Origin: a virus
Virus record (IMG/VR): IMGVR_UViG_3300044641_001598
Location: 1 to 30,919 of that record
Direction: 5' to 3' (one strand)
Length of the DNA stretch: 30,919 bases
Below, piece by piece: positions 26,833 through 29,205 of the stretch. The translations under genes and the position numbers were made by a program. Under the pieces are notes generated by a model that worked only from the letters and a program-made list of their open reading frames with translations, was not told where the DNA came from and made no database searches. Position 1 is the first letter of the stretch, and every line of letters begins with the position of its first letter.

Positions 26833-27723
26833 TTAAAATGGTAGCCCATCGTCAAAGTTATTATTTTCTATTCGTCTTTTTATAGGGTCAATTCCTCCTA
26901 TTTTAAATCCTAATCCAAAATTATAATCAAATAATAAAGGGTCATTTAGTTCTGTTTGTTGTCCTCCTGTATCTCTATCCTTTATTTTTTCAATATCAAT
27001 CATTGTCATATATTTCATTTCAGGATGCTTTATAAGTCTATGAATTACTAACATATCATCACATCTATTCAAAAATGGCTTACCTCCTTCAATATGTGCC
27101 TTTAATGGTGGTTTAAGATGACCGAACCACCTATGGTCTTGTGGGTAAATCATTCCACTCCTTCCACTTTCTGAATTTGGATGCGTTGAAATATACAAAG
27201 TTTTGCCTGTACTATTGCAAAATTCTCGTGTAATATTTAAAAATTCATAATTATCAGAATGTTGCATCCCTCTATTTAATCCTGTAAATGGGTCTATAAA
27301 AGCAACATCACAATCTGAATTTCTAATTATTTCTAATATCTCAAAAGGTGTGTACATTTTTTCATTTGATATAAATTGAAAATATTGTTCCAATTCATCT
27401 TGATATTGTAATATTCTATTAGGTGGTATATCTGAATATTTAACTCCAGCAAACATTTGTATTAAATCACGCATAACTTGACCTGAACTATTTTCTCCCA
27501 TCCAAAGAAGAAATTTAAGTTTATGATTAGTAGCAAGTGCTAAAAAATACCATAACATCCAATATGACTTACCTACATTATCGTGTCCTAATACGATATT
27601 AAGTTGTTTACGTTTAAATAAAATATAATCATCCAAACTACATCCTATTCCTAATCCTCTGCTTATTTTACCATCTCGGTAGTCAAGCAAGTATTGTGTG
27701 TTATATCCTCGTGGTAGTATCAT
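26833..27723 (-). CDS. RecA/DnaB-like replicative ATPase, 296 aa
   Basis: Walker A GHDNVGKS near residues 46-53, a following acidic WMGEN near 74-78, and Walker B VAFIDPF near 140-146 identify an AAA_25/RepA/DnaB-like ATPase. It is probably the replicative helicase or its motor. The extreme C-terminus, NNNFDDGLPF, resembles the acidic tip by which SSB proteins recruit partners. It follows the initiator gene with an ATGA overlap. Confidence 0.82.
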   Translation of the reverse strand: MILPRGYNTQYLLDYRDGKISRGLGIGCSLDDYILFKRKQLNIVLGHDNVGKSYWMLWYFLALATNHKLKFLLWMGENSSGQVMRDLIQMFAGVKYSDIPPNRILQYQDELEQYFQFISNEKMYTPFEILEIIRNSDCDVAFIDPFTGLNRGMQHSDNYEFLNITREFCNSTGKTLYISTHPNSESGRSGMIYPQDHRWFGHLKPPLKAHIEGGKPFLNRCDDMLVIHRLIKHPEMKYMTMIDIEKIKDRDTGGQQTELNDPLLFDYNFGLGFKIGGIDPIKRRIENNNFDDGLPF

Positions 27724-28367
27724 TTGTTAACATTCATTTGTTTCATTACATTTTCATATAGTTGTTGGTCTAATGATTTGACTTTATTTTCTTGTATGTT
27801 TTCCTGTTTTTCCCAAGTCCTAACACAAGCCTTCCAATCTTTCATTTTATTTCTACCAACCATCCAACCTTTACTATCGTAGAAATTAATAAACTGATAA
27901 GCATCTATTTTATTATTTCTTTCAATGCAATATTGTAATACTTCTTGCAAAGAAGGTTTTATAAATATATTCTTTTCATTATTATCATTCTTGTTTGTTG
28001 TTAGTTGCTTGTTAGTTGTTTGTTGTTTGTTTGTTAGTTGCTTGTTAGATATACTTTCTTCACTTTGATAAACATCATATTTACAAATAGTTATAGTGGT
28101 ATATTTGTTTGTTGTTTGTATGTTGATTTCATTTGTTAATACAAACCTTTTTAAAATTGTTCTAATTGTCTGAATTGATATACCTGTATCACTTGAAATT
28201 TTATTATATGAAGTAATAAATTGACCTTTATTTATTTTGATTCCTTGCCAACTTCCGTCAGTATGATTTGCTTTTAATAACATATATAAAAATAAATGTA
28301 CTGCTTCACTTTTATTAAACCATTCCCAACTTATAAACTGCCTATGTAATTTAATCCACCCACTCAT
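27720..28367 (-). CDS. Replication initiator-like winged-helix protein, 215 aa
   Basis: The N-terminal 100 residues (GWIKLHRQFISWEWFNKSEA, then KGQFITSYNKISSDTGISIQ, TIRTILKRF) form the winged-helix domain seen in phage replisome organisers and DnaD-related proteins. A Gln/Thr/Asn/Lys-rich linker follows, encoded by direct DNA repeats, and then a C-terminal part with FYDSKGWMVGRNKMKDW, the FYxxxGWxxG-xxxxDW motif found at the ends of such proteins. It should bind origin DNA and load the ATPase encoded next. Confidence 0.8.
   Translation of the reverse strand: MSGWIKLHRQFISWEWFNKSEAVHLFLYMLLKANHTDGSWQGIKINKGQFITSYNKISSDTGISIQTIRTILKRFVLTNEINIQTTNKYTTITICKYDVYQSEESISNKQLTNKQQTTNKQLTTNKNDNNEKNIFIKPSLQEVLQYCIERNNKIDAYQFINFYDSKGWMVGRNKMKDWKACVRTWEKQENIQENKVKSLDQQLYENVMKQMNVNK
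27998..28048. repeat. Two 18-bp direct repeats within the initiator gene (possible iterons)
   Basis: TTGTTAGTTGCTTGTTAG occurs at 27998-28015 and again at 28031-28048, 33 bases apart, with shorter TTGTTTGTT units in between. They encode the linker of the initiator in frame. In lambda-type phages the origin lies as repeats inside the initiator gene, so this is the best origin candidate in the window. Confidence 0.5.
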
Positions 28368-28395
28368 AACTGTTCATCTGTAATTTTTAATAAAT

Positions 28396-28481
28396 AAAAA
28401 ACCCGACCTTTATCCAGTAGGGTTCGACGTCTACTTTCAAAAAATCGGGTAATAATTTTTTTAGTTACTTAATGTCGAACC
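28396..28481 (-). ncRNA. Putative attenuator leader with terminator and pseudoknot pairing
   Basis: Read on the minus strand, GGTTCGAC (28481 to 28474) comes first. Then ACCCGA (28450 to 28445) pairs with TCGGGT (28406 to 28401), followed by a T run: a terminator. Within it AGTAG and CTACT form a small hairpin whose loop contains GTCGAACC (28428 to 28421), the exact complement of the first segment. That pairing would cross the terminator stem, as in a pseudoknot or an antiterminator. It lies directly before the replication genes. Confidence 0.5.
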
Positions 28482-28492
28482 GTAACCGTATA

Positions 28493-28500
28493 CAAATATA
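28493..28500 (-). promoter_or_regulatory. Putative -7 box TATATTTG before replication leader
   Basis: TATATTTG matches the Bacteroidota -7 consensus TAnnTTTG on the minus strand. A start a few bases downstream would place GGTTCGAC at the very 5' end of the leader RNA. No clear -33 box is present. Confidence 0.4.
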
Positions 28501-28505
28501 ACTAA

Positions 28506-28700
28506 TTATTCTGATTCTTGTTTTGCATATATGCCTAATCGTTTTTCACAATTATCTATCCAGTCATCTAATAGCCATACATCGTATATGTCATCAGGAT
28601 TTCTGTCAGACTTTTTAATGGCATCTTCTTTGCTATTTGCTTTGCCTATCCAATAGTTAGGGCTTCCTTCATTCCATACGAATACTTTATAATATTTCAT
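28506..28700 (-). CDS. Small hypothetical protein, 64 aa
   Basis: Reads MKYYKVFVWNEGSPNYWIGK, then ANSKEDAIKKSDRNPDDIYD and a tryptophan-rich acidic end (VWLLDDWIDNC). A small β-α-β-like fold is likely. The start is preceded by AAAAACACGAACT, a copy of the dispersed motif next to ATG. It overlaps the end of the GIY-YIG gene by 14 bases. Confidence 0.62.
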   Translation of the reverse strand: MKYYKVFVWNEGSPNYWIGKANSKEDAIKKSDRNPDDIYDVWLLDDWIDNCEKRLGIYAKQESE

Positions 28701-29205
28701 AGTTCGTGTTTTTATATACTACCCAATGAAATGCTTTATACTTTCTACTTTTTTTCTTTTCTCCTATTGACATTTCATTTTTCATTTTATTATATAACCA
28801 AACGCAATAATCATATTTTTCATCAGATAGCATTTCATTTATTGGTGTTCCTTTATATTTTCCAAAATCAATAATATACTTTTCTGATAATTTGAATGAT
28901 TTTTTACTACCATTAATTAATTTACTTACAGATTCATCGTAAATATTACCTTCACTATTTTCTCCAAACTTGATTAACCTTATAGCAGTTTCTATTTGTT
29001 TTTCATTTAATTTAAACCACTCTCCAGATAATCTATTTTGAAAAAATCTATTATGCATATATTGTTCAGATACACCTTTACCATAACATATCAATTCAGC
29101 ATTTATATTTCCTGTTTTAATTTGTTTTAATCGTTTTTCAGGATTTACTGATTTACCTATCTTATGGTTTGTACCATCATATATTAAGTATGTATAATGA
29201 TTCAT
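28687..29205 (-). CDS. GIY-YIG (T5orf172/MUG113-type) protein with DUF3820-like tail, 172 aa
   Basis: Residues 1-70 (YTYLIYDGTNHKIGKSVNPE, KRLKQIKTGN, then HNRFFQNRLSGEWFKL) match the T5orf172/MUG113 subgroup of GIY-YIG nucleases, including the KIGKS-x-P-xRL and GEWF motifs. After about residue 105, FGKYKGTPINEMLSDEKYDY and CVWLYNKM resemble the DUF3820/exonuclease X C-terminal domain. It may be a DNA-processing enzyme or mobile-type endonuclease. The gene follows a terminator-like structure, with an AAAACACGAA motif before the ATG. Confidence 0.7.
   Translation of the reverse strand: MNHYTYLIYDGTNHKIGKSVNPEKRLKQIKTGNINAELICYGKGVSEQYMHNRFFQNRLSGEWFKLNEKQIETAIRLIKFGENSEGNIYDESVSKLINGSKKSFKLSEKYIIDFGKYKGTPINEMLSDEKYDYCVWLYNKMKNEMSIGEKKKSRKYKAFHWVVYKNTNYEIL

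Follow-up and report, generated by a model that had tools for sequence, protein, structure and literature searches.

A kissing-loop RNA family with an intrinsic terminator located before replication genes in Bacteroidota phages

Described leader RNAs and the element in the window

Some attenuators and riboswitches that act through an intrinsic terminator, such as the purine riboswitch, are leader RNAs that combine a terminator with a loop-loop tertiary contact. Loop-loop kissing upstream of replication functions is also a feature of plasmid copy control, for example, in the RNA I/RNA II pair of ColE1 and the attenuator of pT181. Among phage leaders, putL, with a length of some 70 nucleotides (nt), lies immediately downstream of PL (PMC9378689). 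HMP_4078 is a candidate structured RNA of 109 bp that is found mostly in Bacteroidetes, near phage D5_N domains (PMC8040213).

The element described here lies within a 30,919-nt stretch of viral DNA (IMG/VR record IMGVR_UViG_3300044641_001598), referred to as the window. Direct reading of the minus strand gives, in order, a TATATTTG box, hairpin P1, an A/T-rich linker, stem P2, hairpin P3, and a U-run (Table 1). The strand GGTTCGAC sits in the loop of P1 and its complement, GTCGAACC, in the loop of P3. Because GGTTCGAC is enclosed by the GGTTAC/GTAACT hairpin, the crossing pair joins two hairpin loops in a kissing interaction.

Table 1. Features of the element and of the two genes that follow it, in the order in which the minus strand is read
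Feature	Position	Strand	Sequence or match	Basis
Whole element	28389..28500	-		Direct reading
Bacteroidota-type -7 promoter box	28493..28500	-	TATATTTG	Direct reading; same box in most homologues
Hairpin P1	28463..28487	-	GGTTAC/GTAACT	
P1 5' arm	28482..28487	-	GGTTAC	Pairs with 28463-28468; double-sided changes in 5/5 modelled P1 pairs
Kissing strand 1, 5' side of P1 loop	28474..28481	-	GGTTCGAC	Exact complement of 28421-28428; 6/8 pairs covary
P1 3' arm	28463..28468	-	GTAACT	Covariation count on alignment; folding
A/T-rich linker	28451..28462	-	Consensus AAGGnATTATT	Conserved; length 14-15 nt in most elements
P2, 11-bp stem	28440..28450 with 28401..28411	-	ACCCGATTTTT/AAAGGTCGGGT	
P2 5' arm (terminator stem)	28440..28450	-	ACCCGATTTTT	8/10 modelled P2 pairs with double-sided changes; excess of G.U over A.C
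Internal loop (4 by 4), first strand	28436..28439	-	UGAA	TGAA/GGAT in 50/87 distinct elements
Hairpin P3	28416..28435	-	AGTAG/CTACT	
P3 5' arm	28431..28435	-	AGTAG	Covariation in 4/4 modelled P3 pairs
Kissing strand 2, 3' side of 10-nt P3 loop	28421..28428	-	GTCGAACC	Covariation; less biased test
P3 3' arm	28416..28420	-	CTACT	Covariation
Internal loop (4 by 4), second strand	28412..28415	-	GGAU	Loop conservation count
P2 3' arm	28401..28411	-	AAAGGTCGGGT	Folding; covariation
Intrinsic-terminator U-run	28389..28401	-		Direct reading; also in homologues
DnaD-like helicase loader, 215 aa, first gene past the element	27720..28367	-	phrog_2514	PHROG, E = 1.6e-31
Replicative helicase/primase-helicase-like (DnaB-type) ATPase, 296 aa, second gene	26833..27723	-	phrog_239; phrog_19	PHROG, E = 6.5e-17; E = 2.1e-8

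Like leaders of the purine riboswitch type, the element has a terminator and a loop-loop contact. Unlike attenuators and riboswitches, it has no leader peptide, no recognized ligand core, and a kissing helix of 8 bp whose sequence is variable, and no antiterminator was found. The element differs from the ColE1 and pT181 systems in that both loops are in one RNA, an antisense transcript is not needed, and the carrier is a phage rather than a plasmid. As a predicted leader, the element resembles HK022 putL and putR, which are phage leader RNAs that follow an early promoter, form two hairpins, and affect polymerase entry into early genes (PMC9378689). However, the put fold contains no terminator, whereas the kissing pair and the terminator define the present element, and no homology between the two was found. 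HMP_4078 is of similar size and has a similar Bacteroidetes phage-domain context but is described as palindromic and without a predicted intrinsic terminator (PMC8040213), a comparison that is by description only.

There was no gathering-level match to Rfam 15 in the window and four further loci. Positions 28300 to 28600 gave nothing relevant at E values of up to 10, and loci from five cultured phages gave nothing at an E value of 0.5 or below. The search for a tRNA or other known RNA was negative, and among the papers listed in literature searches, none was recognizable by title or abstract as describing the element. Apparently, this RNA family is undescribed to date, although HMP_4078 may overlap with it.

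Comparative evidence for the RNA family

The fold of the window sequence alone is unremarkable (z = -1.67; 10 of 200 shuffles fold equally well), and complements of 7 to 8 nt are frequent in A+T-rich DNA (244 in real versus 108 in shuffled sequence in loose scans). As far as sequence can settle the matter, it is comparison among relatives, not single-sequence folding, that establishes the element and shows its helices, kissing pair, strand, terminator, and genomic position. For this comparison, 80 viral loci were gathered via the protein of the gene after the element, and a scan of these loci yielded 49 distinct elements. In their alignment, 95.1% of pair cells were paired, compared with 67.3% in shuffles. 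Cells with double-sided changes, which were present in all four helices, numbered 360; the corresponding numbers were 100 for shuffled sequences and no more than 72 for slid partner strands.

The 49 homologues were selected partly on complementarity, and a model without the kissing helix provides the less biased test. A covariance model of P1, P2, and P3 only was run on loci retrieved by a promoter-like pattern rather than by protein. With a pattern that fixed AC at the end of kissing strand 1, and with some elements coming from protein-derived loci, exact kissing complementarity in the 29 distinct elements of this set extended over 7 to 10 nt in 26, 6 nt in one, and 4 nt in two; mismatched cross-pairs, the control, peaked at 4 to 5 nt. 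The two 4-nt cases (L006 267 and L037 798) are sub-threshold matches that were rejected as members, being short promoter-terminators without kissing.

These comparisons bear on an earlier sequence-only reading of the window. The promoter-like box, the terminator, and the leader position that it described are confirmed by direct reading and by the homologues, and the initiator and helicase genes that it placed after the leader correspond to the helicase loader and the ATPase of Table 1. The exact, crossing 8-bp pairing that it noticed is real, but it overlooked that the 5' strand additionally lies in a hairpin loop. The pseudoknot that it proposed takes the form of a kissing loop. Loss of complementarity without compensation, which it had named as evidence against the pairing, was looked for in relatives and not seen; pairing is kept through many compensatory changes. 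Two loops are thus joined by covarying Watson-Crick pairs, as in kissing-loop RNAs, and P2, a G+C-containing stem with the U-run directly after it, is a conserved and covarying intrinsic terminator. We regard it as practically certain that the element is a genuine conserved RNA family.

Several further properties emerged from the alignments. RNAalifold found P1, P2, and P3 unprompted and all together in the consensus. P2 cells across homologues include 77 G.U but only 4 A.C, an excess indicating that the selected molecule is RNA of the minus (element) strand. The strands of the internal loop are exchanged (GGAT/TGAA) in 2 of the 87 distinct elements; exchanged strands (GGAU/UGAA) are seen in Cellulophaga phage phi18:3 (NC_021794, 3067-3183). 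The exchange suggests a symmetrical stack of noncanonical pairs. The invariance of the box in alignment A1 is partly by construction because the set was picked with a box pattern, and the exact box is absent in L022 and L038. No strong conserved motif was found in the -33 region, which has A/T tracts only.

A structural parse, which in its strict form 15 of the 90 aligned elements failed, recognized 33 kissing sequences among 73 distinct elements. For example, the near-identical elements L095 4990 and L099 14805 differ mainly by compensated kissing changes (CTCTCAC/GTGAGAG versus CTTCCAC/GTGGAAG). In comparisons of close relatives, no accelerated evolution of the kissing helix relative to the rest of the element was observed. 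Most close pairs share the kissing sequence, and we therefore do not claim diversifying selection.

Distribution and genomic setting

Of the 80 related viral loci, 74 contain a covariance-model match to the element, with a few weak matches and one clipped at a contig end. L051 and L079 have little upstream sequence. The element is absent from four of the 80 loci (L008, L033, L060, and L061) despite enough upstream sequence, and thus it is not essential for such operons. A search of whole records, mostly of 20 to 35 kb, found one copy in 26 of 30 viral records, and in some of these a second, weaker match as well.

At least seven cultured Bacteroidota phages carry the element: Cellulophaga phages phi10:1, phi18:3, and phi19:1, Tenacibaculum phage Gundel_1, Polaribacter phage P12002L, and Flavobacterium phages 11b and FCL-2. 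Gundel_1 and phi18:3 have two copies each. These members were found mostly by the covariance model. Blastn with L140 for further cultured members returned chance matches only, and one degenerate DNA pattern, which was too strict, returned none. Matches in phi19:1 (30970) and RAP44 (31593) were rejected as chance matches. Kissing strands in the cultured phages include GCTCTCAC, GTACGAC, CTTCTGAC, CGGGCAGG, and CATCCAC; the kissing pair of P12002L has no clean parse. Croceibacter phage P2559S is a less certain member, with a match that overlaps an annotated frame and a kissing core of GTGCAG/CTGCAC.

The element is nearly always directly upstream of the replication operon and on the same strand. 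An open frame begins 7 to 95 nt (mostly 20 to 35) past the start of the U-run region in all 90 aligned elements. The downstream genes form a replication module in most cases, but the initiators vary. The initiator is DnaD-like in the window and phi18:3, O-like or primosomal in P12002L and after copy 2 of Gundel_1, and weakly primosomal in phi10:1 and phi19:1. FCL-2 has a replication initiation protein, and a phrog_19415-type initiator with a helicase follows the element in L115 and L180 and the second copy in the L038 record. No PHROG match was obtained for the genes that follow L124 and L128. The element is thus retained while the following gene changes. Further copies head Ant in Gundel_1 and gp059 in phi18:3. 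A search of 84,980 species genomes found only two remote relatives of the helicase loader. Between the recombination genes and the leader, the window also carries a gene for a MUG113/T5orf172 (GIY-YIG-like) protein, possibly a mobile endonuclease, at 28687-29205.

Possible roles at the entry to the replication operon

The best reading, and a somewhat probable one, is that the element is a cis-acting, promoter-proximal conditional terminator (attenuator) with a kissing loop, placed before the replication operon. We infer both transcription of the element and its attenuator role in cis. A promoter-like box stands in front of the element and none behind it (in none of the 90 aligned elements was TAnnTTTG found in the gap between U-run and frame). 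Transcripts that enter the operon should therefore pass through P2, which favors a conditional terminator. Alternatively, the operon could receive read-through from same-strand upstream genes.

A conditional terminator of this kind would give a transcript of approximately 95 nt that starts at the TATATTTG promoter, with its 5' end predicted near the P1 5' arm, forms two hairpins that kiss via about 8 bp, and ends at the intrinsic terminator. P1 would fold first, and the P3 loop would kiss the P1 loop while the polymerase was still transcribing the 3' arm of P2. The preformed kissing structure would then set the frequency of termination at P2, perhaps jointly with a factor that recognizes the linker and the UGAA/GGAU loop, both of which are conserved. 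Read-through would yield the mRNA for the helicase loader and helicase, and the element would in this way meter the expression of the replication genes. For RNA that ends short of the P2 3' arm, RNAalifold gave the kissing helix as the consensus fold, and thus kissing can precede closure of the terminator.

The sequence-only reading had also proposed that the RNA could switch between termination and read-through. The part of this proposal that rests on mutually exclusive pairings did not hold. No base of the kissing strands belongs to P1, P2, or P3, and these three fold together; therefore, these are not a pair of mutually exclusive structures. The mutually exclusive antiterminator and terminator stems of classical attenuators and riboswitches were not found. 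The only plausible candidate antiterminator, which pairs AAGG of the linker with CCTT of the P2 5' arm, was rejected because it was paired in 74.0% of cases, compared with 73.7% in shuffles, and did not covary. Consensus folding of the truncated RNA gave no competing helix except the kissing helix. A peptide-leader attenuator was not found either, as the window has no ATG from 28487 to 28440. What stands is a kinetic option, in which kissing occurs before P2 closes.

It is conceivable, but unlikely, that the terminated RNA is itself the product, a small RNA with trans-acting effects on RNAs of the host or phage or on a protein, and that its location is historical. A promoter-like box and terminator of its own would make a complete small RNA, and the compact fold and conserved unpaired linker fit this role. 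However, the fixed site directly before the replication operon in unrelated phages favors a role in cis, and both kissing strands are already paired inside one RNA. A leader that, as in HK022, binds RNA polymerase and antiterminates at its own and later terminators without phage proteins is rather improbable. The promoter-proximal position, the two hairpins, and a size near that of putL (PMC9378689) are as expected of such a leader, but there is no Rfam match and the put fold has no terminator.

The constant helicase-loader and helicase neighborhood across differing initiator families might also point to an origin of replication, with the transcript serving, in the manner of ColE1-type plasmids, as a structured preprimer or origin-activating RNA beside the initiator gene. 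We consider this quite improbable because a primer needs neither a terminator nor a U-run, and the extra copies before Ant and gp059 fit a leader better than an origin. That the element is simply an ordinary terminator belonging to the operon upstream, with a new operon starting after it and with kissing that only stabilizes the RNA 3' end, accords with the same-strand upstream gene that often stops shortly before the element but is very improbable, as a promoter-like box precedes the terminator, the stretch up to the next gene has no such box, and a covarying P1 and kissing helix would be superfluous.

The conditional terminator remains the preferred reading, and the element would represent an unannotated regulatory RNA family common to phages that are unrelated to one another and belong to a major bacterial phylum of hosts, cultured phages included, at the point of entry to the replication genes. 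Early gene control in Bacteroidota phages, which is little treated in the literature searched, becomes directly testable, and the 33 matched kissing pairs are a natural series for RNA folding studies. It is highly doubtful, but would be of interest, that the interchangeable 8-bp kissing sequences are specificity codes that prevent cross-pairing between the RNAs of different operons or coinfecting phages or that enable action in trans on the nascent leader of a same-type phage. If the trans reading were true, the terminated RNA would silence the replication genes of a same-type phage, a superinfection control by RNA only.

Some minor observations concern variants of the element. Four records have two copies: L260 283-395 (in the record of L038), L029 (2713 and 4752), NC_062747 (33891 and 16794), and NC_021794 (3067 and 23584). 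The copies within each of the four carry different kissing sequences. A divergent subgroup (L017 2891, L019 2891, L062 2408, and NC_018276 33901) has the kissing core GATGCAG/CTGCATC, or GTGCAG/CTGCAC in P2559S, with strand 2 followed by CCCCGAAA or CCCGAAA, and aligns weakly to the main family. Another conserved promoter-terminator leader (AACCCTTACTTCGGTAGGGGTTTTTTAGTTT), which is shorter and has no kissing hairpins, is present at L002 675, L006 317, L028 1064, and L037 849 and shares some phages with the kissing element.
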